Positions 3,783 to 64,000 of a stretch of DNA of 64,000 nt are shown here, piece by piece. Origin of the DNA: Tamarix chinensis (lineage: Eukaryota; Streptophyta; Magnoliopsida; Caryophyllales; Tamaricaceae); the NCBI GenBank assembly GCA_030549775.1, contig CM060181.1, forward strand, positions 53,202,218 through 53,266,217, read 5' to 3'. The translations under genes were made by a program, and so were the position numbers. A model generated the notes under the pieces. That model did not search any database. It saw only the letters and a program-made list of their open reading frames with translations, and was not told the DNA's origin. Positions within the stretch are counted from its first letter, which is position 1; each line of letters starts with the position of its first letter.

Positions 3783-3940
3783 CATAAATTCCAATTCTTA
3801 TTCAATGACAAGCACTTTTGACCAAAGGTAAAAGCAAAGGTAAAAGCGGCCAAAAGCAAAAGAAGAAAAAATAAAGGAATCTGTGGCAAAGTACAGCATG
3901 TGGAGGACTTTTGAATTTCTTAAGTCACTTTCATAAATAG
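3783..3940 (+). repeat. Inverted copy of caulimovirid promoter/leader sequence
   Basis: 3820-3940 on the plus strand matches the reverse complement of about 5321-5480, including a shared tgtggaggacttttga core (near 3900 and 5345) and the flanking aaggaatct and cactttca phrases. A further short match, aaattccaattcttattcaa near 3785, equals the reverse complement of leader sequence at about 5070-5092, but in a different relative order. The viral end is therefore folded back and rearranged, a common state for endogenous pararetroviruses. Confidence 0.75.
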
Positions 3941-3944
3941 GTAA

Positions 3945-4767
3945 TTTGTTTATGTTTGTATTTGGTTTTGGAACTATTGGTTTCAGGTTATTTTCCTGGG
4001 GTGGTAAGGCATTTTCTAATGTCTGACCCTCAGGTAAGGATACTTCATTCCATTTTATTGTTTTTGGGACAACTATGTTTGATTTTGAGTTGTCGGTTTG
4101 AAGCATTAGGGTTTCACCTTTTATGCTTTGTATTTTTTCTTTGGTGTTGAATGCAGTTTTCATAACCTTATAGTGAATTCCATAAATCACAGCTACAAGT
4201 ATTGATCTCTCTAACATATCATAACCATGAGTTTTAATTTGTAAGGTCAATGCATGCACAATATTTGGGTCATCTAATGATGGTGCAAAATTTGGATAAC
4301 AATTAAAAAATATAGGACCGGCATACAAGCTACTTTCTAGGGTTCCTATCATGGAATCATTAAAATTTTTTAACCTACCATCTCGTAGTATTGCTAAGAC
4401 AGAAGTGTTTAAACCTTCTTTGGTTACTATTTTGAATTCTACTTGGACTAATCTTAAGTGGATGTATTTGAATTTATTATTTCTATTTTTTTAAATGAAT
4501 TGTTTTGACAGCAATTTGATTGTTTCGAATGGTTTTGAAAGTTGAATGTCACACTCTTCAATTTTGATGACATAGTTTGTTAATAAATTCCAATTTGAGG
4601 TTTTGTATATTAGTTCCTTATTCATTTTAGGAAGTTTCCATTCATCTACAGATCCTTGGAAATATTCAAATTCATATTCTTTAGTTTTTTTTGCCTATCT
4701 CTAAGTTCTCTAAGTAGTTCTTACTACTAGAACTAGAGGAAGAAGATGATGGAGAAAACAAATTCAT
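3945..4767 (-). pseudogene. Caulimovirid movement protein remnant (30K superfamily)
   Basis: The movement protein of caulimovirids binds nucleic acid and modifies plasmodesmata for cell-to-cell spread. The best open part runs from 4352 to about 3945 and holds the conserved core: a GTLESSLYAGPIFFNCYPNF-like segment, then ALTLQIKTHGYDMLE and IHYKVMKT. The upstream half (about 4767-4353) is recognisable in pieces and includes the nearby DGRL motif. It is broken by several stops and frame changes, with a serine-rich stretch just after a candidate ATG at 4765-4767. It follows the leader and primer site directly, as in related viruses. Downstream it runs into the inverted promoter fragment instead of a coat gene, so its C terminus is not viral. 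It is non-functional as it stands. Confidence 0.8.
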
Positions 4768-4936
4768 TTTTTCTAACCTATTCCTATATGTAGAACCTAC
4801 GTCTAAACTGTCTGGACTTACTACCCTACCCTTCGGGTCTTACTCCCAGAACACACAAGCAAAGATGCATTATGCTTCCTACACATAGAAAATCAGAAAG
4901 ATAGATAAACTTACTTCTCTCTCAATCTAATCCCTC

Positions 4937-4951
4937 TTGGCTCTGATAACA
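4937..4951 (-). promoter_or_regulatory. Primer-binding site for initiator tRNA-Met (caulimovirid)
   Basis: The minus strand reads TGTTATCAGAGCC, matching the tRNA-Met complementary consensus TGGTATCAGAGCC at 12 of 13 positions. Caulimovirids start minus-strand DNA synthesis here. It lies about 250 bp downstream of the TATA box and about 170 bp before the movement protein ATG, which is the expected order. Confidence 0.8.
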
Positions 4952-5196
4952 AGGACGCCTAGGATTTGAGGGATTGGAAAAAGACCTGAAGAATAAGAGA
5001 TTTGAAAAGATAGATAAATAATAAATTTTAGAAAATAAGATAATGAAAGGAAAGGAAGAAGAGAAGTTTGAATAAGAATTGGAATTTATTAATTTGAAGT
5101 TTGGGATACAAGTTTGGATAGGTGGTCGTGTTATACAAAGAGAGGAATTTTCGACCACAATTTTTCAACCCCTTGTAAATGAAACCTAAGTCCCCT

Positions 5197-5203
5197 TTTA
5201 TAG
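5197..5203 (-). promoter_or_regulatory. TATA box of the caulimovirid pregenomic promoter
   Basis: On the minus strand the box reads TCTATAAAAGGGG. It stands in the intergenic region between the downstream ORF (ending near 5581) and the primer-binding site, where the 35S-type promoter of caulimovirids lies. The upstream region to about 5480 is A/G-rich and is the part duplicated in inverted form at 3820-3940. Whether it still drives transcription is unknown. Confidence 0.7.
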
Positions 5204-5580
5204 ATGGAAGGGGTCTGACTATTACAACTTTTGAAAAGTGGATCAGAAATAATCCATCAAAAGTAAACAGTATAAAGTACACAGTAAAATGTATACTAAA
5301 AGATAAATAGTATAATTAAATAGTGAAAGTGACCTAAGAAAGTCAAAAGTCCTCCACATGTTGTACTTACCGTAGATTCCTTTGTCGTTTCTTCTTTTTC
5401 TTTGGCGGCTTTTTACCTTTGTCTTCACCTAAAAGTATCCTTGCGGATTCCTTTTGCTTTTGTTGACGCCACTTTTACTTTTGTCTTGTCCTTTTGCTGG
5501 TGACAGAATATTCTTGTCTGTCACATGTTTTGGTGTGTGCCTTCTTGTACGCCTTTTGTAGTAGAATACATACAGGACTA

Positions 5581-6959
5581 TTAGGGGATATTAGGGGGTA
5601 TACCGTAACAGTCATCTTCGTTTTCATCTACATAGTCTGGAGTTGGTTCAAATGATAATGATGATGATGCCTTCTTGTTTTGGGATAATACTTGACTGAG
5701 GATTGTCAAGTATTCTTCCTTGGATTTGGCCGCTACAAGCTTTGGTACGGTGACTGACTTCTAGGCTAGAAATTTTGTTTGTGATGAGCTGGCTTGAAGT
5801 TGGTTTGCCGGTGAACCTTTAATGAATCTTGATGTAGTTTTGCATGGCTTGGTTTGATAATTTATCAAATGCCTGGAGTTTGTTCCACCATTTGACCTTG
5901 AACCTGCGCACCAGTGTGGGTATTCCTTCTACCTCATGAATCTCTGTCATCCATGCAAAGACCTAGGGGTCGAACATTTTGGAGGAGAAATGGAAGATAG
6001 GGGTAATAACATATCCTTTTGTGTGGGTTTGAAGAGGGTTTTTAAGGTATTAAATGATTGTGATACATGGGGAGGAAGTATTTATGGGATGGATCCAAAA
6101 TCCTTCTACCATCTTATGAACTAGAAAGGAACTTCTTTTTCGTTGAAGTTATGAAAGAAAATTAACAAGGAGTGAGATTTCCTAGAATTTTTGGTATAAA
6201 AGGTGTTGTACCAGGCCTGCTGGTAGTCCCAATAGCTGAAGGTCAATTTTTTGTTTAGGATAGATTTGTACGAATCAGGAAGCCATCGAGGTTCGAGGCT
6301 TCTACCCCAATCCGCAGGAAGAATAACCCTGTGTATCTTATAGGTTGAGTAGGCGACTTCATTCTAGGTTTGGGGTAATGAAAATTTTTTGAATGAAGCT
6401 GAGCTTGTGTACTCAAGGATTAATAAATACAACTCTTGGGGTTTTTTTATATCCCAAGGTTTGAAACACCAACCAGAAAATAGTTTTGTCAAAGCAACAA
6501 AGGGATCTGGGTTGTAGAATCCATCTTCAAGGTTTGAAATTATCTAGGAATGAGGTTTGATAAAATATTCAGATTTCTTTTGGAAATCTTTTGTTTTGAA
6601 ACTAGTTCTTTTGAAATTGGTTTTTGTAAAACTGGTAAAGAAGAAGCATTTGAAATGCATTTTTGTGAAGGAGTTTTTGGAGTTGAAGATTCTCCTTCAA
6701 TCTTGAAAACTTGGTTTGAAGATATACCTGAGTGTCCAGGTTGGGAGCTCTGGATGGTATTTACCATTTGGAGTGCCTTAAGCACTTCTGGGGAATGGAT
6801 GAGTGATTCAACCCATTTTTGAATGTTTTGCTTTGATTCTTCAATTTGAGGGGATGAAGCTGCTGCTTCATCTTCAACCATTGCTTCAAACCATGAACGA
6901 ATGGATTTGGGTGCAAGGATTTCTTGAATTTTTTCCTTACCCTTCTTCTTTGATGCCAT
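5581..6959 (-). pseudogene. Caulimovirid ORF downstream of RNase H (function unassigned)
   Basis: An ATG at 6957-6959 opens a frame (MASKKKGKEK start) that overlaps the end of RNase H in a different frame. It stays open for 139 codons to 6540: lysine-rich, then acidic, then Ser/Pro-rich. Remnants continue with stops and frame changes to a stop at 5581-5583. They include a tract with a PTLVRRFKVKWWNKL-like segment near 5890 and an acidic tail with the DYVDENEDD motif near 5620. Caulimovirids carry either a translational transactivator or an unassigned second ORF in this position. The tryptophan-rich segment resembles proteins annotated with plant endogenous caulimovirids, but no biochemical role is claimed. 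Confidence 0.65.
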
Positions 6960-6961
6960 TT

Positions 6962-9100
6962 TGTGACTTTTCTTGGAGGAATTCCCGAGTAAGAAAGTCC
7001 AGTAAGGAATTTGCTTCACCCTTTATATATTCAATCTTAAAATTGAAGACTGAAAGGAGAGCTTGCCATCTGGCAAAGACCTATTTGGAGGTAATATTTT
7101 GGCATCTTTTTTGAGGATCTCTTTGGCATATTTACAGTCAATTCTTAACAGGAATTTTTGGTTAAGGAGATCGGACTAGAATTTTTTTTTATGGATTGGA
7201 CAATCGAGAGTATTTCCTTTTTAACTATCAAGTAATTTCGTTGGGTTTGGGTCCAGTTTCCAGAAGTGAATTGGATCACTATTTAAAATTTGGATTGGGC
7301 ATGTTTGGATTGGTCCAAGTATTTTTCATATGAATGGGCTTAGGCTTGTTTGAGCATGCCCCAGTATCCAATTTCTAAGGCGTTTGTTTCAACGATTTTG
7401 AATAAGTTTGGGTTGGCCAAGTTTAAACAGGGAATGGACTGAACTTGGGCCTTGATCTATTTAACTATGTTGGTATGGACCTGAGTCCAGGGTTTTAGGC
7501 TCTTTTTAAGGCGGTCATGCAAGGGCCTAGCTATTTGATTATGATTTGGACAAAATTCCAGAAAGTAATTGAGGCTACCCAAAAATCTTTGTAATTGGGT
7601 TTTGTCAAGGATTTGGTCTGGAAACTTAGATGCAAACTCTATGGACCTTTCTATTGGGACGATAGTACCTGCCTCGATATAATATCCTAAGAATCTGATC
7701 CTATTTTGGGCTAATGAGATTTTGGGCTTAGACACAACTAATCCATTTCTTTTTGCGACACTAAGGAATGCCCTAAGGTATCTAATATGTTGGTCTAAAC
7801 TATTTGAGAATATTAATACATCATTGATGTATACAATACAAGAATTTGAATAAGGATTAAAAATGTCGTTCATAATTCTTTGAAATTCAGAAGGTACATT
7901 TTTTAATCCAAATGGCATAATGTTCCATTGGTATTTAACAAATGGGACAGTGAACGCTGTTTTGTAATGGCCATTAGGGTTTATTTGAATTTTCCAAAAT
8001 CCTGATTTTAAATCAAAATTTGAAAATATTAACGATGAATATAACCTTTAGAGAAGTTCCTTTTTGTTAGGAATTGGGTACCTAATCCATTTGAGAGCAT
8101 CATTTAAGGGTTTGTAGTTAATTACTAATCTTGGTGTTCCTCTTTCAATTTCAAAAAATTTATTAACATAAAAAGGCTGCAAAAGACCATGGTGACCTAG
8201 ATTTTATAATTAGGTTTTTTGATTCTAAGTCTTGGATTTCTATTTTGCAATGTTCTATTCATTCTGTGTTCATTTGAATTGGACAAGCCTTTGTTGGTAT
8301 ATTTTTTTCATTGAAATTATCTTCATATGGTAGGTCGACCATATGGTTTTTTCTTGACCAAAAAGCATTTGGGAATTTAGAACACATTTCAGTTTCAATT
8401 TGGTTTTTGATTTGAAATATCTTGTCCTTGATCAATTTTGTTTCTAATTGATTTTGAATTCTAGATAAGGACACATTTTTTTAATAGCTTTAAATTGTTT
8501 TGCTTTCCTTGAATAAGGAGGTTAATTTGACTTTTATATATTGAATTTTCCTTTAATAGGTTAAGGTTTCTAGTCCTGGGAATTTCTAGGAATAAGAGGA
8601 CATTTTTGGATCCTTTATTTTTGAATGAAATTCCAGTTAGGTTAACCTTATAAGGGGTAATTAAATTTATGAATGGAGTGCCCAGAATGATACTATGACT
8701 TATGTCTGGGGTTATCAAATAGGTGGATTTGATTTGCAAGTTGTTACAAATTACACTTGCTTCACATTTGTTATTGATTATGAGTCTAGAGCTGTTTGTT
8801 GCAGACATCTTTTTATTTGTTTTGGAAAGGAATTGCTTGGGTATTATTCCTTCTTTTATGTAATTTAGGTGAGCATCGATATCAAATAGTGCGACTGAAT
8901 TAATTTGGAAGTCATCAGACAATTTGAGGGTTATGTTAATGATATATTTCCTAGAAGTTATTTCTTGTAACATATTAAGAAAATCTTCTGGGATTGGTAT
9001 ATTTTGAAATTGTTCATCTTCAGACTCATTTGGTTCACTGGGTTCTGGAGATGTGTTTTGCAATTATTTTGACAATATCATTTGAATAATTTGGCTATCA
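6962..9100 (-). pseudogene. Caulimovirid protease - reverse transcriptase - RNase H remnant
   Basis: Read from high to low coordinates. The protease part (9063-8461) has an ALFDIDAHLNYIKEG active-site region where the catalytic Asp-Thr-Gly has become Asp-Ile-Asp (D61 at about 8883). The reverse transcriptase part (8474-8259 and 7918-7457) has MPFGLKN near 7918 and a catalytic box YIND instead of YIDD at residues 30-33 of the 153-codon frame, then the FLGSLNYF connection region. The RNase H part runs from about 7456 to 6962 and ends with an ARWQALLSVF and YIKGEAN segment. In life this polyprotein would process itself and copy the pregenomic RNA. Frameshifts between 8259 and 7918, stops, and both changed catalytic motifs make it dead. 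Confidence 0.85.
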
Positions 9101-15764: not shown

Positions 15765-16105
15765 CGGGAACCCCAATATTTTAGCCGGTGGATCGATCGT
15801 AAGGGTAACATACCTTGCCACTATTTTAGCCGGTGGATCGGTCGCGAGGGTAACATACCCTACCACTATTATATGCCGGTGGATCGGTCTGGCCCCTTCT
15901 CGTACGGTGTTCCACTGTAAATCATTAGTATCTTCCCACATCTTATCAACATATATCGTTTGGTTTGTTGAGCTCGGGATCCCCCACTATTTTAGCCGGT
16001 GGATCGGTCGCGAGGGTGCATGCCCTGCCACTATTTTAGCCGGTGGATCGGTCGCTAGGGAAAACATTCCCTGCCACTATTATGCCGGTGGATCGGTCTG
16101 GGCTC
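15765..16105 (+). repeat. CCGGTGG hairpin minisatellite in LTR copy A
   Basis: At least six copies of ccactattttagccggtgg with variable tails (gatcggtcgcgagggtaaca and similar), about 42 bp apart where consecutive, in two clusters split by a 100-bp spacer (about 15890-15980). Each core is an imperfect palindrome (CCAC...GTGG). The frames at 15654-16143 only translate this repeat. Confidence 0.85.
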
Positions 16106-23696: not shown

Positions 23697-24824
23697 CACT
23701 ACTCCAAAAGGGGTTTTAATAACGGTTATTTTATAGTTTTAATAACGGTTTTCAACCATTATTGAACCGCATGTTATTAAATCTTTAATAACGGTTCATA
23801 ACCGTTATAAAAAATATACAAAAACCCGCGAATATGTGCATAAACTTTATATTTAATAACGATTTTTATCAGAACCGTTATTAAAGCCTCAATTTTAATA
23901 ACGGTTCTGATGAAAACCGTTATTAAAATTATAGTTTTTTTAATATTTTTGCTGTTTTGTTCCTACCCACATACACAGTTGTATGTTCAAATAATTACCA
24001 AATCTGCATTGTAAAACAACATCAATTCATAACAAATATTATGGCCAACACATTCATTTGTTAATATATAACAATAACGCAACAAATTCAACAATGAACA
24101 GCAACATTTTCAACCAACACATTCAACAGCACATTTTTGAACAAAAAACTGCAATTTTTCAGTAACAAACAAAAGTAACCCTGTAGCAACATGTATGCAT
24201 TTCTATATATATATATATATATATGTAAGTAGAGAAAAATTTATGAGAGGAAGAAAAAACACATACGTAAAGTGAGCGGCGAAAAGCAAGAAACTAGTGG
24301 CGAGCAAGTTGAGAGTGGCAACAACCTACAAACACAATAAAGGATGAAGGTACAAGTGCTAGCTAGGTTTGGAACAATGACAGCACACACATGCAAAGTT
24401 GACAATGGCAGAGGGATGGTGGAAAGTTAGCGGTGCGAGGGTTTCCCTTACTTGAGAGGAGCCGGAGTAGTGGTGCATAGTGTGGTGGTGCGAGGGTTTT
24501 CAAGGATAAGGAGAGTAAGAGAAGGAAGGTGCAGAGAATCTAAAATTTTTGGCACGAAACAGAACTAAGCGAAATAAAAGTTTGATTTTAGAGTTTTAAT
24601 AACGGTTCCTGAAAGAACCATTATTAAAACCTCTTTTAATAACGGTTCTTTCAAGAACCGTTATTAAAACATCCGTGTAAATTTTAACATTGCCCTTTTA
24701 ATAACGGTTTTGAACTATAACCGTTATCAAAACTATCCCGCCCATTAATTTTCACGCATTTGACAACGGTTTTCGAACTACCGTTATTAATGTCCCGTTA
24801 TTATTTCCCGTTTTCGTAGTAGTG
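23697..24824. mobile_element. Non-autonomous CACTA (En/Spm-type) transposon, 1128 bp
   Basis: Starts CACTACTCCAAAAGGGG and ends with the reverse complement of CACTACTACGAAAACGGG: typical CACTA termini with imperfect terminal inverted repeats of about 17 bp. Both subterminal zones are packed with TTTTAATAACGGTT in both orientations (about 23715-23930 and 24595-24800), the expected transposase-binding repeats. The flanking trinucleotides are cat and gat, so the 3-bp target duplication is imperfect. The centre carries a (TA)n run near 24205 and no transposase frame, so mobility would depend on an autonomous relative. Confidence 0.88.
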
Positions 24825-33462: not shown

Positions 33463-36400
33463 TTAAGTGTAACACCCCCAAATTTACTACTGAAAAATTT
33501 CGTTTAAAATAAAAAGGTTTAGCGGAAGCAAAGGATAAAACCATAAACTCGGGGGTATTACCACCACACTTAGTACCAGACCGGTTCACTCCTACCATTC
33601 CAGTACTAAGTGCTAAGGCTAAATCCGATCAACCTTTAGTACGAAGTATCAAAAACGCAAGACAACATTTAAAATACATCCTTAATAAGTGGTAAGTCAA
33701 ACAGAAGTTAGAATACGATTTAGGATTACAACCCCAGAATATGTTTCTCAAAACAGGAATGTAATACAAAATACAGCTAAACAAAAACAAATCCCGAAGG
33801 ATCAATATTCGGATTGCCTACTCACTCAAGTCAGGCCTTCCACCCCAAAACAGTATCCGATCTTAAACCTGCACAAAAGGTCTGCTCCCCACCATCGATG
33901 GATCATCACAGGACCCATTCAACCAAGGTAGTATCAGTACGGGTCCAATACTGAGTAAGTCCCGCTACCCTATCTTATAGGAGAGATATCATCAAGTGCA
34001 TATTAAATCCGGGTACAACACGTTGATACAATATCATACATATTCACAACCCACCGCATGAATCTTACCATACACCTAGAGTAACATATAAAACATAGGT
34101 AACATTCTATTTAAACATATAAGCGTGGTATAACCGAAATATAAAGTGGCTTATACGCCTCTGGTAGGAATAATCCATATTATTAAAACTCAATACGTGG
34201 CATACTCACATAAGCAACATGTAGCAATACAGATAATAAAGCCGGCCATGGTCCAATTAGACTTATTCTTTATTCTCATTAATCATATGTTCATTCCACA
34301 CATATTCTTTAATAGTCCATGTGAGTGCGGGAACCCCACTATTATAGCCGGTGGACCAGATGTAAACACACAAGGCAAAACGCCTCTGACCACTATTCTT
34401 ACCGGTGGATCGGACTGGCCTCGAATCACATGGTGTTTCACTGTAAGTACTTAGTATTTTTCCCATGGATTAACTTATTTATTTGGGTCTGTCGAGCTGA
34501 GATCCCCCACTATTATAACCGGTGGACCGGATGTAAACACACAGGGTAGAACGCCTCTGACCACTATTATAGCCAGTGGACCGGAACGAAACGCACAGGG
34601 CAGAACGCCTCTGACCACTATTATATCCGGTGGACCGAAACGAAACGCACAAGACAGAACGCCTCTGACCACTATTATAGCAGGTGGACCGGAACGAAAT
34701 GCACATGACAGAACGCCTCTGACCACTATTCTAACCGGTGGACCGGACTGGGCTCGGCTCAACAGTCTTTCGCTTTACGTTATTAGTGTCTTATCCGTGT
34801 CTTATTGAATCACACAACACCCTTGAAATGCATGCGGTTAATACCCTACTACTTTCCCCTCCAGAGGGACCATCCCATATTTTGAGACCCGTACCTCTTC
34901 TCACACCCGACATCCCCCTAGGGTTCCTCCTCGGAGACCCTAATCGGACCTATGTGGCCCAACTCTTTCTTACTTACCCAAACGTCACTTCGTCCTCTAT
35001 CTCGCACCTCATTTTTATTAGTAAATTCCCCAAATGTATTACTTTATTTCCCAAGTTCACATGTGACCGACAAACCCTAGTTGACCACCCAAAACCCTTG
35101 TTGACCACGCCAAACCCTAGCACTTTATTTCCCCCAACAAGTAACCTCCCTCTTTCACCCCAAAATCTCTTCTCTCATTTAGAAACCCATACTCATCCTT
35201 TATATAAGTGAGTTCTCACTCTCAACCCCATACTCCATCCTTCCTTGATCATTTTTACCCTTGTACCCTTCAAATTCATCATTTTCTCTCAAAACCCTAA
35301 TTGGGTCCCTTAGACACCCTTACATCGACCCATGTAAAATTTTGCACCCAAGTCTCCAATGGACCCATTACTTTGACATTATCTTATTTACTTCCTAAAT
35401 CAACTTTCATCATGTAAGATTCATCCCCATGCAAAATTTAAATACTCCATGCAGACTCCCCAACACCCAATTACTCGCAAAACCCTAATCAAGTCTCTTA
35501 TGCACCAATCCACATACTATCTTTCATACCAAGTCTCCAATCACTCTAAAGCTCTCCAAAACTCTTACTCACAACGCAAATCAACTTTTCCCACGTAAGG
35601 ATCATGCCCATGCAAGGTCTAGTCCCCCTATGCAAACTTCCCAAATGTCCACTTTCCCGTTGTTCTTTTATTATCATTTCATGCTACCAAAACCCTAGCA
35701 TGCATGTCCTAGAGGGCCATATCATGTCACATCATCAAACATCAAACATGGAACATGTCATGCTCGTATAATATAAGGCACACACATCATACCTCATTAT
35801 CCACGCTGCGCTACACAAAACAGGGTATTCATAACACATGCATAATACACATTAACATGGCATACTCATCATTCATCAACACATCACATCACACATAACA
35901 TTTGGCCATAGCTTCATCCTTACTAAACACTCATAATTAGAGGTAAGTAGAGACTTACCTGGATTCGAAGCTAGCTAAGCGAGATAAGAGGGAGAGAGAT
36001 CACTAGCTCATGGATCCACGAGAAACCTTTCCTAGATCAAATAGAAATCAAAAACTAAATTAGAAACTATTTTATCAATCAATAACTCGCGTATTCTAAT
36101 TAAATAAACACAAATGATCTTTCTTAGAAAACGTGTCCAAAACTTAGAACTTAAAAGCATAGCTTTATTAAGATTTAAGGTTAAAACTAAATCAAAACGG
36201 ATTAATACAAATATCACTCGGGACATTTCAACTTAATTTGGAAAGCCCGAGAAAGAATAATCGATCATAAGTTAATTTATCGAAAATAACTTATTTATTA
36301 GGTTTTACAACTAAATAGGTAATCTAACGATTTACATAGAACCAAATCCAACCCGATTAGGTTAAAACAGAATTTAAATGATTTAAAACCCAAAGATAGA

Positions 36401-40066: not shown

Positions 40067-40579
40067 TGCAAAAATTTTGTGGAATAGAGAGATCCACACC
40101 AAATTGAGATAAACAAGATTATGCAAAATTGAAAACACACACACAAAATAGAGCAATTCAGGAAAAGGTAGAGATCTTATTCATACTCTTGTGTAATTAT
40201 AATATGATTAAACCAATCAATCACTCAATTAAACGAATCAATAATTCTCTTTAAAGAAAGAATTCTATGGAGAAGAAAAATTTGGGGCACATGACTCTCG
40301 ACAACTAGGGTTTCAAAACGTCTCCTTTTGTAGAACAGAAATCCTGGAGAAAAACAACGTATTTTGGAAATAAGCAAAAACACTAGAACTCGTATTTATT
40401 TCCTTACATTCAACTTTTGGTCAAAACACATCAATAATTCATCAAAGGAAAAGAGTCCATGTAATATAATATGCCCCTCTATGTTTCTCACACATAACTC
40501 TAAATTATACCAATCTTCTCTAACACATGCATGAACCAACACAATGTTATGCTATGTTCAAATACCCAATCAAAATCCA
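40067..40579 (-). repeat. 5' LTR of the minus-strand Copia element
   Basis: Pairs with 31997-32521. Its outer end (…aaaatcca at 40579) is directly followed by an (AC)n microsatellite at 40578-40598. Confidence 0.8.
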
Positions 40580-40599
40580 CACACACACACACACACATA

Positions 40600-41530
40600 C
40601 GTGTGAATATCCTTGAGAAGGAAAAGCTCAATGGAGATAATTTCCTTGATTATAATAGAAACTTGAGAATTGTTCTAAAGTAAGAAAAGGATTATGTACT
40701 TGAACATAAGTCCATAATGAGCCTACTATCAATTCTCCATGAGTTAAAATAGATGTTTAGAGGAAGTATGTTGATGATTCAACTAATTTCACTTGTCTCA
40801 TTCTACTACAATGATCTCAGATGTTCAAAATCAATTTAAATACATTATAACTTACAAAAGAATTACAAAAGAATTTCATGAAACTAAGCTAGTAAAGGGA
40901 ACCCAGTTAGTCCACACATGATTAAGATGAATGGTTATGTTGAGAATTTATAAATATTAGGTTTTCCTAGTAGCCAAGAGTTGGGTAATAATATATTTCT
41001 AAAGTGTTTGACACCAGCTTATGATAAGTTCATCATGAACTATAACATGCATAATATGAATAATACATTGACTAGGTTACATAGGATGGTAAAGATAACT
41101 TAATAGAGCATTGAGAAAAAGCCCAATATTTTTTATATGGTTAATAAGGGAAAATGTTTCAAGGAAAAGGAAAGGGCAAAAGTTAAAGAAATGATAAGGG
41201 TAATTGGAAAACCCAAGTTGAGAACTCGAGCAACAAATCCAAATCCAACCCCAAGCCTTGCACTATGGATGATGTTACTTTCTTTAACTATAATGAGGTT
41301 AGTCATTAAAAGAGGATTTACAAAAACCATTCAGAAGATCTAAAAAATAATAAAGGAAGTGAGACAACCATTTAAATTATTTATGTTGTCGAAGTAAACG
41401 TTTCTATTGTTGCTTCCAACTCATGGGTAATGTACAACTTGTATTTCTCACATTTGTATAAATGTGTGGAGACTCATAAGGAGTAGACAATTAGCTAAAG
41501 GATAAGTCTAACTATGTGTGGAAAATAGGG
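40600..41530 (+). pseudogene. Copia gag - protease relic, plus strand, different element
   Basis: Plus-strand translation in broken frames recalls a plant Copia gag: LNGDNFLDYNRNLRIVLK near 40630, a SPHMIKMNGYVENL stretch near 40910, YDKFIMNYNMHNMNNTL near 41020, then a basic tract in the open frame 41137-41343. A protease trace (SNSWVMYN) follows near 41420. Orientation and sequence differ from the minus-strand Copia next to it, so this is a separate element whose LTR is gone. It has many stops. Confidence 0.65.
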
Positions 41531-42159: not shown

Positions 42160-44537
42160 AGCCTAGATTATATTTCTCTTATAGTAAGGATTAGAAACAT
42201 ATTAAACACTTGAATCACCTCTTAAAGTGTGAAGAGAGCTTCTACCACCAAAAAATAAGAATTCAATGGATGAGGGGGTGGAGATGCAAATACCAAGTAC
42301 ATTCATATAGTGGTTAAGGGTAAAGCTCAGGGTAATAGAATTATTTTTATTTAGGATGCATCAAGAAGGACCCAAAATGACATTTTTGAGGTGTTCTCTT
42401 AGTTTTATGAAGGTTTACAAGTCTCTAAAGTAGTTGCTATAGAAACTTTTTCAAAAGAAGATTTGCTTAGTAGCTCAAAAGTTTCAAATCATGTAAAACA
42501 CTTTTATTACTAAGGTTGAAGTAAGAAAATCATTATTTAGTATGGGGGATGATAAGGCTCCAAGCCTAGATGAATATAATGAATATTTTTTTAAGGTCAC
42601 CTAGCACATTACTAGAGAAGTTTGGCAAGTAGTGAGGGATTTTGTTACAACTGGAGAGTTGCCTTAGAGCTTGAATGCCAAAACTCTTAACTTAATATCA
42701 AAAATTCCAAATGTTGAATAGGAAAGAGACTATATCCCTATAGCTTGTTATAATACAATTTGCAAACTTATTGCTACGGTGCTTATTGATAGGATTCAAC
42801 CTTATCTATCAACTATTGTGAGGAAGGCTCAAGCTCCTTTTGTGCAAGGTAGACAGATAGATGATGCCATTTAAATGGACACTAAATTGGTTAATGGTTT
42901 TATCCTAAAACACTTCTCACCTAGATGTACAGTCACTTATGATTCAATAAGTTAGAAATTCTTAGAGAAAATTATTTTGGGCCTTAATTTTCCTCTCTAG
43001 TTTGCGAAACTTCTCATGAGATGTGTAAAAACTAGTAGTTATTCCTTAGTCCTTAATGGAGTATTACACTAGCCTTTAAAAGCAAGGAAAAGCTTAAGAT
43101 AAGGTGATCCCATTTCACCTTATCTCTTTGTCGTTGTCATGGAGTATCTAAGTAGACTTTTACACTTAGTGTAGGATAATCCTTAGTTCAAAGCCTATCC
43201 TAAGTGCAAGGGAATTAGATTAGTGTCATTATTATTTATAAATGATTTTTTGTTTTTATATTGATGAGATACACTATCCATTAAGGTTTTGATTGATATT
43301 TTTCTCCTCTTCATCTAATATTTATGGTTGACAACTTAATGCAACAAAGATTAATATCTTCTATGGGGATAAAGTAATTGATGCAACAAGATTTTAGATT
43401 TATCAACAGTTCCACATAATAGAGGGATCTATGGTAGTCAAATATCTATGAATCCCATTAGTTGGAACGAGTTTCAAAGTCACTGAATACCAGCCTCTTA
43501 TTGGTGAGTTCATGGCTAAAATAACATCATGGCAAAACAAGATTTTGGGCTAAAATAAAATATGTTATTATTGGCATTAAAGCTTGTTGAAGTCTTATGT
43601 ATTTTCTTCCAAAATATGTAATTAATGCTATTAAATGCTACATTTTGAGCCTTCTTATGGTCATGTAATCATCTCAATGCAAGAACCCTATAGCTTGGCA
43701 ACACATATACAAGACCAAACATGAGGAGGTTAGGCATTATTAAGCTCAATTGGTGGAACATGGAAATACAATGGAATATATGAATAAAGAAGGATGTATT
43801 TTAGGTTAAATAAATACACTCCTACTTCATAAAATACAAATTTTTATTGGAGTTACAAAGCACTACTATTACTTCATGGAGCTTAAAATGGCTACTTGGC
43901 GTAAGTTAGATATTTTACTAGATATCTCATACTCTCAAAGGACAATATATTTATGTTCATTGCTAATTTAATATTGTATAATCTATTTAATGAAATATGA
44001 CTGAGAGGTGAGAAGGTAAACTAGTGTAAAGTGATATGGAACCCAATTTCATTACCACAACAACATATCCATTTATGGTTGTTGCTTATCAAAGATTCTT
44101 TATCAATGATCAAATGATTCATATGGGTATCATAGTGGAACCTAGGTTCCACTATGATACCCATATGAATCATTTGATCATTCAATGCAACATATATTCT
44201 TTTCATGTGACTTTTTGAAGCAAATATGGGAGCCTCTCATTAATGGATTCAGTTGTACTCATTGAGTTAATGAAATCCGAAGGTATTTAGATGAATGTAA
44301 AGAGGAGGTTGAGGTCCACCATGTAGATTAAAAGTTTTGTATTATTCACTAGCTTCTATCACTTATCATATTTGGTTGGAACAGAACCAACAACTATTAC
44401 AAAGTGGGAGTGGAATGCCAGCTCAAATCACTCGAGGTTTAATCAAAGTGATATCAAGTCAAGTTGAGAGTAGAAACTAGTGCTAAGTCTCATAAGAGAC
44501 TAATTGATTTTGTAAATAAAAGTTTTAGCTAGTTAGA
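42160..44537 (+). pseudogene. L1-type LINE ORF2 remnant (reverse transcriptase to C-terminal zinc region)
   Basis: Broken frames on the plus strand keep the L1 reverse transcriptase order. These are DDKAPSLDEYN near 42550 (usually DKAPGPDG), LISKIPN and YIPIACYNTICKLIATVLIDRIQ near 42730-42800, then QAPFVQGRQI near 42830. GDPISPYLFVVVMEYLSRLL near 43107 follows, and FINDFLFLY near 43240 stands where the catalytic FADD box should be. A later trace (ITYHIWLEQNQ near 44360) matches the tail region of plant L1 proteins. It would have reverse-transcribed its own RNA at the target; now it is dead with many stops. Confidence 0.8.
44105..44182. repeat. 78-bp perfect palindrome with no spacer
   Basis: Arm 44105-44143 (starts aatgatcaaatgattc) is the exact reverse complement of arm 44144-44182. 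The centre is cctagg. Symmetry stops sharply at both edges (c at 44104 and c at 44183). Because of it, both strands encode the same peptide run in overlapping frames (44021-44218), which is not a gene. It lies within the LINE remnant. Confidence 0.95.
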
Positions 44538-46249
44538 CTAGTCACTAGAGCTGGCAATCGGGCGGGTCGGATCACTATCGGATCGGGTTATATGATAATC
44601 GGGTCATATCGGTTTCGGATAATTTCGGATCATTTTGTCGGGTCGGGCTAGGTCGGGTTTGAATCGGATCAACTCAGTATCGGATAATCTCGGGTCATTC
44701 TAAGGTCTCGGATCGGGTCTGGTTGAGATCGGATGAACTCGGATTCGGGTAAATTTTGGTTGTTCTAATTTCGGTTCGGGTTCGGATCGGACTCAGGTGA
44801 ATTTGAATTATTATATTTTTGGGTCAAATTTAGATTGGATTTAGGTTATTTCATATTTGAGTCATGCTTGTGTCATTTTTTTTATTCCAATATATTATTA
44901 AAAGCTAATTATTTTGAGATCATTTATTTTAATTTATCTTTTTCAATTAAAAGTGAATTATTATATTAATTGTTTTGGGGCCTTAGAATTTTTTATCATT
45001 ATTTCATCTTTGGAGATGTATTTGACATTTTAAATTTAAAAGTTTTCAAATCATATCACTTTTCTTTTTATGTTAAGGTGTAGCTTATAATTCAACTCCA
45101 TTATTAGCCTGGTCATATTGAGTTCGAGTATTATTTTAAGTTTATATTATATTTATATCTTATACGCTCCTTACATAATATTAACTTATAATAATAATTG
45201 ATAATTGATAACAAATGAAGGCTTCTAAGGTTGTGTTTCTCATATTATTTTTATAAAAAATTGATCACATCATATCAACATAATTTTAATAATAATAATA
45301 ATACAAAAATAATGATAACAATAATAATAGTAATTAATGAATATCAATTATGGCAAAAATAATAATAACAACACATAAGTTTTTTTTATTATATATTTTG
45401 ATTATATTATATCAAGCAAAATAAGATAAAAATTAGATAAAGTAAGTAATAATGACTATTATTGACAAAAGACCAACTAATATTGACTTATTACTATTTA
45501 ACACTGTTGATGTAATAAAAAATATTAATCTTCAATTTTCATAATAAATAACTAACATTCTCACTCTAGATTTTTTCTACTTTCCTATGATATTATAGGT
45601 GCTATATTGCAAGGTATGACCATATAGATACTAACATATAGTGTTCAAGGCCGCACTGTTATTATCTTATGGTACTAGATGGAATCATAGAAGTGAACTA
45701 ATATTTAGATGGCATAGTAGAGTTTTTCTTTTTTTTCTCTACTTTTATTTCTATACTTTTATATTGGTATCAATGGATATTTTATTTGTATATACATAAG
45801 TGATATAAATTTTATGATTTCTAGATTTTGATGTAAGTGCTAGTATGGATTAGTTGCACATCTATATTATTTCATGCTTTATGAAGTTTTGAAAAATTTG
45901 AGTTATGGGTTAATATTAATTTTCAGGTAGTACAAATTAGAATATTTATAGATTTATAATTTTTCAGATAATATCGGATTTCGAATAAATAATGGATCGG
46001 GTTGGGTCATTTCGGATTTATAGTTTTTCGGGTTATATCAGGTTTCGGGTGAGTAGCGGGTCGGGTCGGGTTTATTTCGGGCTTATAATTTCTCGGGTTA
46101 TATCGGATATCGGATATGTATCGGATCGGGTTGGATAGATTTCGGGCTTTTAATTACTCGGATAAAATCGGATCGGATGTCGGATGGATCGAGTCGGTAT
46201 TCGTCGAATTTTTCGGGTCGGGTCAACTTTTGCCAGCTCTACTAGTCAC
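44538..46249. mobile_element. Non-autonomous hAT transposon (1696 bp) with 8-bp target duplication
   Basis: The element runs 44546-46241. Its ends are TAGAGCTGGCAA and, inverted, TTGCCAGCTCTA, a 12-bp perfect terminal inverted repeat. It is flanked by an exact 8-bp duplication CTAGTCAC (44538-44545, 46242-46249). The 8-bp duplication and the TA-G ends indicate the hAT superfamily. Both subterminal zones (44555-44800 and 45960-46225) are dense arrays of tcgggt/tcggat units, probably transposase-binding sites. The middle is AT-rich without a transposase. It sits in the 3' end of the LINE remnant. Confidence 0.92.
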
Positions 46250-47434: not shown

Positions 47435-47481
<47 letters not shown>

Positions 47482-59982: not shown

Positions 59983-61236
59983 TCAAGAGGGAGGTGGAGG
60001 TGGGTCTCGGTTCCCGAGATGGAAATCATAGAGATTTTTCATCATCTCCATCATTTGATTTTGGTTAGCTCGAATGGAATCCAATTGGGAGTACACTTGA
60101 TTTTGAAACTGGAGGTGCCATTCAGGAACAAAAGTGTTTGAGGAAGAAGAGATGGCTTGGGATCGAGGTGGTGGTGGTGGTGGATGGGCACCATGAGGTG
60201 GAATAGGATGTTCGATTGCTAAGGGGGTAGGGTTATCATCATCCTCATTAGGTTGCCAATTCAAAGGATTTAAAGGATCAGTTTTGGTAGGGTTAGGAAG
60301 AGGAAAGAAAACACGCCCCTGATAAGAAAGGTACCACGCATTATTCCTACGCTCAATAAGATGCGTAAGGCGACAATGTTCAATATCAATGCGGGTACTC
60401 ATGGCCTCAATAGGCATATCCTCCGGAAGGGGTATGTCTAAACTCATACAGATGGTGGTAATTAAACCCCCGATAACAATGTCCCCTTGTTTGGAATGAC
60501 TGACCCTTTGAAATTGTTTGGCAATAAAATAGGCAGTATCAACAGAATAATGTTCAAGCATAGAGTAGAGAAAGAAAAGTTCAATTGAACGAACTACTCC
60601 TGTACTATCTCCCCTCCCAAATATGGTAGTAGCCAAATGCCTCTGAATGTATCGGAAAACTAAGTTAAAAATCCTAGATGATTTGGCTTCAGATATGCGG
60701 AATGTATCGGGAGTAGGCATATTCGTGGTATCACCTATTTTTGCGAAAAAATGGTTGGCATAAAACAAGGGTAACATGAATCTAACTCCCTGTGAAGGTA
60801 ACATGAAAATGTGGGCAAGTTCATGCACCGCTAATTGTCTATCCTCATTAAAAAGACGAAAAGAAACATACCCTTGATTATTCTTTGTATCACCAATATC
60901 ACCAATTTCAGCACACAATTCAAAGGTACTTAAAAATTCTAAAGTCAAGCGTCTGTAGGTGTGATTAGTACAATAGACAAAGTGTTGCAAACCTATAGTT
61001 TCGAGCATACGCATGACTTGATTATGAATGCCCAATGTGTGCAAACATCCATCATCTAGATATCTAGTACCAGTAATACGCCTCTGAGATAAGTAATCGT
61101 ACCTTTCTTGTTGTTTGGGGGAGGTAAAAATGATACCTAAATCGTTGGGTCGATTACGTCGTTGTCTTGCTTGCGTTGGTGATGATCGGGATCTCGAGGA
61201 ATCACCTTCAGCACGTTGTTTCTTTTTCGGTGCCAT
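59983..61236 (-). CDS. Athila-type ORF downstream of pol (env-like position), intact, 417 codons
   Basis: Uninterrupted from ATG (61236) to stop. The N terminus is basic (MAPKKKQR, then Ser/Arg-rich), a nuclear or nucleic-acid-binding type start. The middle keeps the pattern of Athila ORF proteins (Pfam ATHILA-type family): QERYDYLSQRRITGTRYLDD, TYRRLTLEFLSTFEL near residue 115, YVSFRLFN, LAVHELAHIF, then GDIVIGGLITTIC near 255. The C-terminal part is Pro/Ser-rich with a glutamine/methionine coiled-coil-like tail (NQNQMMEMMKNL). It lies after pol, where retrovirus-like elements carry env, but I see no clear signal peptide or membrane span. Function is unknown. An intact frame next to a broken pol suggests recent insertion. 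Confidence 0.82.
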   Translation of the reverse strand: MAPKKKQRAEGDSSRSRSSPTQARQRRNRPNDLGIIFTSPKQQERYDYLSQRRITGTRYLDDGCLHTLGIHNQVMRMLETIGLQHFVYCTNHTYRRLTLEFLSTFELCAEIGDIGDTKNNQGYVSFRLFNEDRQLAVHELAHIFMLPSQGVRFMLPLFYANHFFAKIGDTTNMPTPDTFRISEAKSSRIFNLVFRYIQRHLATTIFGRGDSTGVVRSIELFFLYSMLEHYSVDTAYFIAKQFQRVSHSKQGDIVIGGLITTICMSLDIPLPEDMPIEAMSTRIDIEHCRLTHLIERRNNAWYLSYQGRVFFPLPNPTKTDPLNPLNWQPNEDDDNPTPLAIEHPIPPHGAHPPPPPPRSQAISSSSNTFVPEWHLQFQNQVYSQLDSIRANQNQMMEMMKNLYDFHLGNRDPPPPPS

Positions 61237-61789
61237 CTACACAAAGATTACCACCTTTAAGTTAAAAATCAGTGGTGAAAGCATGAAAGTTCAGCATATA
61301 CATAAGATAACGACAATGATAATTTGGACAAAATTGCACTGAATGCATACATATGCTCTCATAATGGCAATCACCCAATCTTTCAATCACAGTAATGCGT
61401 GAAAACAGCATATGTAAGAAATCAATGAAACGAATTAACATTGCTGTCATAAGGGAAAGAAGACTTACCTAAATTCGTGAAAACTGGTATGAATGCGTGA
61501 GAAATCAAAAGAAAGATATATGAATACCAAATCCCACGAAAACCCTAAGTTAATTTGCAAAAAAAAAAAAATAGATGAGACAATGGTCGAATAAAATTAG
61601 GGTTGATACGAACGGTCGATTGCTCTGTTTTGGATATACAGAAATTAATCGACAGGGGAAAGAAAATTAATGGTGGAAAAAGAAGATGAGATGTTATTGG
61701 AGTAGAAGTTGTGAAGAATCGAAGATTTGAGTGAGAAAAATGGAGGAATCGAAGGAGAAGAGTGGTGCAAAGAACTAGAGAGAAACGAA
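61237..61789. other. Spacer upstream of the Athila ORF
   Basis: Leader of the Athila ORF on the minus strand. Only short frames without domains were seen (61262-61450, 61545-61823). Possible splice signals for a subgenomic RNA could lie here; none was assigned. Confidence 0.4.
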
Positions 61790-62300
61790 CGAGAGGGTCG
61801 TGTTTTTTCAGATCTGAAAACACGGGGGGAAAAAAGGCTCTGGAGAGAAATACGGTCCGTATTTCGGAAATACGGTGCCCCCGTGTTAAATTTTACACAT
61901 TGTGGTTATGACGGAGAAGGTAACACGGGCCGTGTTTCTGAAATACGATACCCCAGTGTTAAATTTTTGGCTCTCTGGAATTTTGAAAAGTTTTGCAGAG
62001 AAGGAAACACGGGCCGTGTTAACAAATACGGTACCCCCGTGTTAATTTTGAAGCTCTCTGGAATTCTGAAATTTTCTGCAGAAGAAGAAACACGGGCCGT
62101 GTTAACAAATACGGTACCCCCGTGTTAATTTTGAAGTTCTCTGGAATTCTGAAATTTTCTGCAGAGGAAGAAACACGGGTCGTGTTAAGAAATACGGACC
62201 CCCCGTGTTAAATTTTGAGCTCTCTGGAATTCTGAGATTTTCTGCAGAGAGAAAAACACGGGCCGTGTTTGTAAAATACGACCCCCCCGTGTTTTTTTTT
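61790..62300. repeat. 83-bp array of near-palindromic cacgggccgtg units
   Basis: Units begin cacgggccgtg (or one-base variants) at 61924, 62008, 62091, 62174 and 62257: steps of 84, 83, 83 and 83 bp; an older tacggtccgta unit is at about 61852. Each unit has a near-palindrome aacacgggccgtgtt, then aatacggtacccccgtgtt, then a spacer (gctctctggaattctgaaat...ttctgcagag). It sits between pol and the Athila ORF. The frames at 61727-62435 merely translate the array. Confidence 0.92.
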
Positions 62301-62450
62301 GTTAGTAAGAAAATAAACTACCAATGTTTTGCCACACATATACACATTATGTACATAAAAAGTCATACCAAATATGTAAAAAGAAAAGTATGTAATAAGG
62401 AAAACTTATATACAACACTTGGGTGTCCCAAGTGACAAAATGCAAGTCTT

Positions 62451-64000
62451 TCAGCTCTCATAATTGGGAGTGGTAAGATCAACCACTTCCAAATTGTGCA
62501 CTTGATGTCCTTCGTAGTAAGGTTTTAGGCGATGTCCATTGACCTTCCATATCTTTCCTGTTTTCTCACTCTTAATTTCAACTGCACCATGAGAAAACAC
62601 ATTAGTCACAACAAATGGGCCGATCCATCTCGACCTCAATTTTCCTGGAAACAACTTCAATCGAGAATGATATAATAAAACTTTCTAACCAATTTCAAAA
62701 CTCTTTCTATGAATGAACTTATCATGAACTGCTTTAGTTCTATCTTTATATATTAATGCAGTTTCAAAAGCCTCATTTCTTATTTCTTCCAATTCTTGTA
62801 ATTGGAGTCTCCTATGTTTTCCAATTTCAGTTGACTCCATGTTACATTTCTGTACGGCCCAAAAAGCTTTATGTTCTAACTCAACTGGTAGATGACAAGG
62901 CTTACCGTATACCAGACGATATGGAGACATACCAATTAGAGTTTTGAAAGCTGTACGATAGGCCCAGAGTGCATCATTAAGATGTAAGCTCCAATCCTTT
63001 CTTGTTGGTTTCACCATTTTTTCCAAGATTGATTTGATTTCCCGGTTAGATACCTCGGCCTGACCATTGGTTTGTGGATGATATGCTGTAGATATTTGAT
63101 GTGTCACATGATATTTCTTTAATAGAGCTTCTACGGTTCTGTTGCAGAAGTGTGAACCTTTATCGTTGATGATGGCCCTTGGTATGCCAAACCTTGCAAA
63201 AATGTTAGTTTGAAGAAAGTCTGCAACAACCTTTGCATCATCAGTATGGGTGGCCTTAGCTTCCACCCATTTTGACACATAATCAACAGAAACAAGAATG
63301 TATTTAAACCCGAAAGAAGATGGAAAGGGGCCCATAAAATCCATACCCCAAACATCAAAGATTTCGCATGCTATGATAGGAGTTTGTGGCATTTCATTTC
63401 TAGGACCTAATCCCCCAGTCTTTTGACAGTTTTCACATGTTTTACAAAATTCATGAGAGTCCCTAAACAATGTAGGCCAAAAGAATCCACTCTCTAGAAC
63501 TTTATAAGCCGTTCGCTTGGGACCAAAATGTCCCCCGCAAGCATAACTGTGACAAAAATGTAAAATAGACAAGACCTCACTATCAGGAATACATCTTCTA
63601 ATGATTTGGTCGGCACATTGTTTCCACAAGTATGGATCGTCCCATACAAAATATTTTGCCTGACTTTTCATTCTATCTTTCTGTGCTTTTGTAAAGTGAG
63701 AGGGAAATACCTTAGCTACGAGAAAATTTACCATGTCAGCATACCATGGTATCTCATCTCCAATGACATGAAGTTGCTCATCCGTAAATGCTTCATTGAT
63801 AGGTGCTTCAACTTCAACTTGTTTGATTAACCGACTTAGATGATCTGCTACTCCGTTTTTGGTTCCTTTCTTATCTTTAATGCGTATATTGAATTCTTGA
63901 AGTAGAAGAATCTATCTAATCAGTCGTGGTTTTGCCTCTTTCTTTGCTAACAAATATTTTAACGCTGCATGATCAGAGTAAACAATTATTTCAGTTCCTA
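62451..64000 (-). pseudogene. Athila-type Ty3 pol 3' part: RNase H end and integrase
   Basis: Continues past the window end. From 64000 down: the RNase H end (EIIVYSDHAALKYLLAKK), an in-frame TAG at 63912-63914, the linker, and the integrase HHCC zinc domain ([13 protein letters not shown] ... CKTCENC, about 63610-63430). Next is the DDE core with [11 protein letters not shown] (about 63340), [10 protein letters not shown] (about 63160) and the [15 protein letters not shown] glutamate (about 63060), then [21 protein letters not shown] second in-frame TAG at 62682-62684 separates the C-terminal part ([12 protein letters not shown] ... [10 protein letters not shown], 62660-62451), which stays in the same frame. 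Integrase would insert the element's cDNA; the catalytic D, D and E are all present, but the two stops disable the polyprotein. Gag, protease and RT lie outside the window. Confidence 0.9.

Follow-up and report, generated by a model that had tools for sequence, protein, structure and literature searches.

A perfect 78-bp palindrome in a decayed plant LINE, probably made by a single local template switch

Several described systems show how inverted repeats can be written into DNA by a wandering nascent strand. In rad27-deletion yeast, sequencing of passaged strains revealed long new palindromes, and in the case drawn in Figure 6 of PMC5677150, a 66-bp insertion, the nascent strand turns on itself at a 15-bp palindrome, copies 55 bp and returns. 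In great apes, genome comparison of close species yielded short-range template switches in which the four-point order 3-2-1-4, leaving a single inverted repeat, is one of two majority patterns (PMC7954356). Template switching has also been described as giving birth to perfect RNA stems from one mutation, in microRNA and rRNA genes (PMC8794818), and in yeast coding genes inverted-repeat templating within the frame makes the arms of pre-existing short repeats alike through multinucleotide changes (PMC8604942).

Here we analysed a window of 64,000 nucleotides from Tamarix chinensis and describe a palindrome at 44105-44182 that very probably records a single short-range template-switch mutation, replication-associated and of four-point order 3-2-1-4, in a long-dead LINE. 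The mutation type is already known, and the locus is a clean example of it. As in the yeast events of PMC5677150, a fold-back that copies tens of bases would give a long new palindrome in one step, but here the event is reconstructed from plant paralogues, and 30 nt were replaced. The order 3-2-1-4 and the single inverted repeat are those of the great-ape switches (PMC7954356), whereas ours is one locus, its paralogue references are at least 26% different and its spacer is zero. A perfect stem from one mutation is shared with the RNA genes of PMC8794818, although no Rfam family matches at its gathering score here. Inverted-repeat templating in a coding frame and a multinucleotide change are likewise shared with the yeast genes of PMC8604942; in place of the pre-existing repeats described there, one copy of the LINE (on contig C5 of the same genome) shows no more than a CTAG and a weak quasi-palindrome, and another (on contig C8) shows neither. 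Searches of the open literature led to work on yeast, mammals, bacteria and other organisms, and the titles and first lines of abstracts among these results contained no plant case of this type; a review of Triticeae chromosome fragility (PMC13393857) does use the relevant words.

A perfect palindrome inside a LINE relic

A letter-by-letter check confirmed the predicted 78-bp perfect palindrome: a left arm of 39 nt at 44105-44143 (plus strand) and a right arm of 39 nt at 44144-44182 (minus strand) are 100% complementary (39/39) and separated by a 0-nt spacer. The symmetry also ends as abruptly as had been claimed, the next outward pair, C44104 and C44183, being unpaired. Scanning all 64 kb for inverted pairs with arms of at least 20 nt (seed 14, at most 400 nt apart) gave 19, and the only other perfect zero-spacer pairs among them fall in an AT run at 47437-47480; by chance, a palindrome of this kind is expected about 64,000 x 4^-39 times, that is, not at all. 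Within the window, the inner 17 nt of the arm are confined to the two arms with up to 3 mismatches allowed. Exact searches with the inner 25 nt gave 0 matches in viral contigs and 0 in prokaryote genomes, and a plasmid search with 44060-44240 returned no match. Folded as single-stranded DNA, the 78 nt form a single long hairpin closed by a 4-nt loop, at -40 kcal/mol (z -14), compared with -8.7 kcal/mol (s.d. 2.2, n = 200) for shuffled controls.

By its order of domains, the surrounding sequence is evidently the 3′ part of a decayed L1-like plant LINE ORF2, in which a reverse transcriptase domain (RVT_1) is followed by a zf-RVT domain (zinc-binding in reverse transcriptase). The part recognised from domain matches and frames spans 42234-44481 on the plus strand, and a frameshift-tolerant profile alignment places the zf-RVT region (PF13966), which contains the palindrome, at 44025-44230 on the same strand. 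In joined, stop-masked translations, RVT_1 matches with an E-value of 1.1e-7 and PF13966, with the right arm masked as well, with 1.4e-7. Together with these matches, the many stops and frame changes, which break the ORF2 frame at many places besides the palindrome, uphold the predicted location inside a decayed LINE. A protein search with the LINE translation found 81 homologues, and those with a readable organism name are all from plants; the best match is a protein of Asparagus officinalis at 28% identity. A second protein search, with a 211-aa C-terminal piece, returned 12 candidates, none scored, and a separate gag search gave 12 hits of no more than 39% identity. Just 5′ of the LINE, at 40500-41400, translated pieces presumably resemble a Copia-type gag. 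Just 3′ of it lies a CGGGTCGGATCGGG-type repetitive tract (44551-44700), and a 65-bp tandem unit of similar flavour is found at 45951-46173.

Native and foreign sequence at the palindrome

Before any genomic copy of the LINE was known, the DNA was compared with a zf-RVT profile in an alignment that tolerates frame changes. A seed-profile search of the 81 homologues gave 50 aligned zf-RVT rows, and 43 of these were used for the scoring profile. In coding orientation the left arm reads NDQMIHMGIIVEP, corresponding to profile columns 28-40 (N-D-Q-M-I-H-M-G-I-I-V-E-P), and native coding is back from 44182 with S-M-Q-H-I-F-F-S-C, columns 51-59. Between columns 40 and 51, where 30 nt (ten columns) are expected, 38 nt are present; the profile path assigns columns 41, 43-44 and 46-50 to right-arm sequence, mostly at low or negative scores, and neither the Cys of column 42 nor that of column 45 is found in it. 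Taken by itself the profile alignment is no proof of replacement, and it is the genomic copies that we regard as proving it.

These copies came from a search of the 1.32-Gb assembly (28 contigs) with a 181-bp query, in which all match counts are lower bounds. The query matched its own locus and diverged LINE copies on C5 and C8; the remaining matches paired the palindrome with its reverse complement or with the C5 arm, and within this lower bound no arm copies were found outside LINE relatives. Over about 2 kb, BLAST identity to the window LINE is 68% for the C5 copy, whose alignment covers 42501-44481 of the window, and 65% for the C8 copy. Outside the right arm, K2P distances are 0.325 between the window and C5, 0.464 between the window and C8, and 0.451 between C5 and C8.

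Both copies carry the left arm ungapped and in the same orientation, followed by 30 nt up to a TCT Ser codon and then by the right flank; they are of a non-palindromic form, for which the original prediction had proposed to search the genome. The 30-nt native segment reads R-C-P-stop-C-M-L-H-D-E in C5 and A-C-Q-L-C-M-L-H-D-E in C8, and the Cys pair is present in both, with a stop between its members in C5. Relative to C5, the window differs at 12/60 positions of the left flank, 6/39 of the left arm and 13/60 of the right flank, and in the right arm at 15/30 positions plus an 8-nt gap; the corresponding figures for C8 are 18/60, 10/39, 25/60 and 17/30 plus an 8-nt gap. The 3173 bases around the C5 copy hold no inverted pair of at least 16 nt within 120 nt. 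Eight such pairs occur in the 3078 bases around the C8 copy, none of them at the palindrome site: seven belong to AT-rich sequence beyond the aligned LINE, and the eighth, a 76% pair, is found elsewhere. The palindrome had been called conserved, and it is absent from both of the relatives found.

Because C5 and C8 both carry the left arm in coding orientation, this arm is the original LINE sequence and the source of the copy. The right arm is an exact inverted copy of the left and the only foreign segment, set next to unchanged flanks. Relative to both copies, it has taken the place of 30 native nt that held the first two zinc-ligand Cys codons, with 38-39 nt put in. The exact bases of the window locus before the event are inferred from diverged paralogues rather than orthologues, since the closest copy found, C5, differs from the window at 26% of aligned sites.

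Two other readings of the arms were discarded. A 4-nt deletion at the left edge, taken from the profile path, is ruled out by the ungapped C5 alignment. The in-frame ESFDH of the outer right arm (44167-44181) was considered as a native E-S-x-D-H motif accompanied by a prior 16-bp inverted repeat, an idea that fails on two counts: the profile puts native SMQHIFFSC right after the arm, and the 30-nt segments of C5 and C8 end with an E codon, followed by the Ser codon. In a simulation, none of 200,000 reverse complements made from back-translated homologue arms (40 of the 50 rows usable) contained a motif of the ESFDH type, as against 18% when the NDQMIHMGIIVEP residues were kept and only codons varied, and on account of this difference we take ESFDH to be a by-product of this arm's residues.

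Proposed mechanism, age and alternatives

We propose that DNA synthesis through the zf-RVT region arrived at the CTAG at the centre of the palindrome (44142-44145), the putative entry point of the switch. The nascent end would then have left its template for an inverted one, which may have been its own strand bent back at the small palindrome or, across the fork, the opposite strand; there it would have copied 38-39 nt backwards over just-made DNA, from 44143 to 44105. Synthesis would have rejoined the first template 30 nt beyond the point of departure, at the Ser codon within the native E-S-x-x-H-[LI]-F-F motif, so that the native reading S-M-Q-H-I-F-F-S-C resumes at the return point (44182-44183). 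With the 30 skipped nt lost and the inverted copy substituted for them, a single step would have created the perfect palindrome with its zero spacer. In four-point terms, L to 1 would end at the centre, 2 to 3 would run from 44143 to 44105, and 4 would lie at 44182/44183.

Several sequence features of such a switch are found at the locus. The right arm is an exact reverse-complement copy (39/39), its source is present and the copy absent in the C5 and C8 paralogues, and native sequence is replaced, 30 nt by 38-39, before it resumes co-linearly. The 'fold-back error' offered among the earlier explanations is thus supported by the C5 and C8 comparison and can be specified as a local template switch. 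At the return point there is almost no microhomology, the shared sequence amounting to no more than about 1 nt. At the centre, C5 has CCTAG, and a 14-bp quasi-palindrome around it matches at 5/7 pairs in C5 and 1/7 in C8, so that symmetry before the event is suggested, not proven; because C8 is without CTAG at the centre, it is C5 alone that points to entry microhomology. We infer replication rather than repair synthesis, and likewise the strand used; repair synthesis could be the source of an identical product. Given the zero spacer, we judge a cross-fork switch to be as likely as a fold-back, two routes that the sequence cannot separate.

The arms also indicate when the event took place. The left arm and C5 disagree at 6 sites, and the right arm has the window state at 6/6 of them; the state at 44107 occurs in the window alone, C5 and C8 sharing another base. 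Where C5 and C8 are identical, the window differs at 191 of 1145 sites (right arm left out), which corresponds to a window branch of 0.19 substitutions per site after Jukes-Cantor correction. Had the palindrome spanned this whole branch, about 15 arm mismatches would be expected, and the probability of seeing none is about 4e-7. Because the arms have zero mismatches, the event is placed late, within the last 20% of the window branch at 95%, and 0/39 mismatches set an upper limit of 7.4% on the divergence between arms. The switch would thus fall within about the final fifth of the branch leading to the window copy, later than most of the decay, in keeping with the recent formation that had been predicted. 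This date is relative to the branch and not to the insertion, as the branch may include time before insertion. Plant substitution rates are about 0.7-1.3e-8 per site per year, and with these the age limit of the event is about 3-5 million years.

The original prediction named an assembly or library artefact as its main alternative. Fold-back artefacts of assembly, polymerase or library do produce palindromes, and palindromes arising from whole-genome amplification have reportedly been described in long reads (PMC6218980), but a fold-back read would be expected to mirror everything upstream, and the mirror here ends after 39 bp. Beyond it, moreover, native sequence continues in unchanged orientation, with 30 nt replaced in place, and the locus sits on a long contig (C11, 86.8 Mb). 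We consider an artefact improbable, since the copy stands where native sequence would be and native sequence follows it directly.

Repeated homogenisation of the arms of an older palindrome would account for their perfect match whatever its age, and template switching can also restore stems (PMC8794818). Against this, no intermediate exists in either copy found, and homogenisation is unnecessary, as one recent event accounts for all the data; active homogenisation, part of the earlier interpretation, is therefore not supported and has very little to recommend it. The claim of conservation is not supported either, while the decayed LINE, the recent date, the fold-back error and the non-palindromic copy all stand.

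Even less probable is an origin in reverse transcription at LINE insertion, or in a source copy that already carried the palindrome. LINE reverse transcriptases are known to jump between templates, but the palindrome is absent from C5 and C8, and the inverted copy includes the window-private base 44107. It is the timing that makes this origin probably wrong: 0 mismatches in 39 pairs at 0.19 substitutions per site has the probability of about 4e-7 given above, a figure to be read with the proviso that the branch may predate insertion. Scarcely credible is that a small fold-back transposon or MITE, about 78 bp long, was inserted, an origin which would fit the palindromic form and the TCAATG at both edges (44103-44108 and 44182-44187), resembling a 6-bp target duplication, but which is contradicted by a left arm of native LINE sequence found in C5 and C8, by TCAATG copies that overlap the arms unequally, by an own-genome query (a lower bound) without arm copies beyond LINE relatives and, decisively for it not being an inserted element, by a locus that is 8 nt, not 78 nt, longer than C5 and C8. 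The TCAATG-flanked candidate was rejected.

Possible consequences and other elements in the window

A search of the window against Rfam at gathering score gave 0 matches, a result with which a new family is still compatible. The lack of an Rfam match, a LINE frame broken elsewhere and a palindrome present in neither copy appear to give no sign of function. It is highly doubtful that the palindrome, a 39-bp perfect stem born of one mutation inside a LINE relic, is a newborn hairpin locus. On that reading, and if transcribed, the hairpin would enter the small-RNA pathways of the plant and could seed siRNAs directed at the LINE family or a young microRNA. The locus alone leaves the known mechanism unchanged. 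Comparison of repeat copies within one large plant genome can assign source, copy, entry and return points to a striking perfect palindrome that had seemed unexplained, and many-copy dead repeats could serve to count template switches in plants.

Several further elements lie elsewhere in the window. On the minus strand, a viral movement-protein domain (PF01107, E 9.2e-14) at 3798-4490 and, in a separate frame, a reverse transcriptase (PF00078, E 1.2e-27) at 7457-8044 belong to fragments at 3798-9063 that, from this combination of domains, look like an endogenous plant pararetrovirus. A cluster of imperfect inverted repeats at 23732-24670, with AATAACGGTT / AACCGTTATT in common (for example at 23842-23937 and 24593-24670), resembles a fold-back element family. 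Tandem arrays at 15773-16098 (44-45-bp units) and 34507-34747 (54-bp unit) lie far apart, and the units of both start with CCACTATTNTANCCGGTGGA. An LTR retrotransposon at 59983-63911 (minus strand) carries a gag of ATHILA ORF-1 type (PF03078, E 1.7e-27), open over 417 codons, and an integrase region (PF00665, PF17921), and between the two lies an 83-bp tandem array at 61914-62269.
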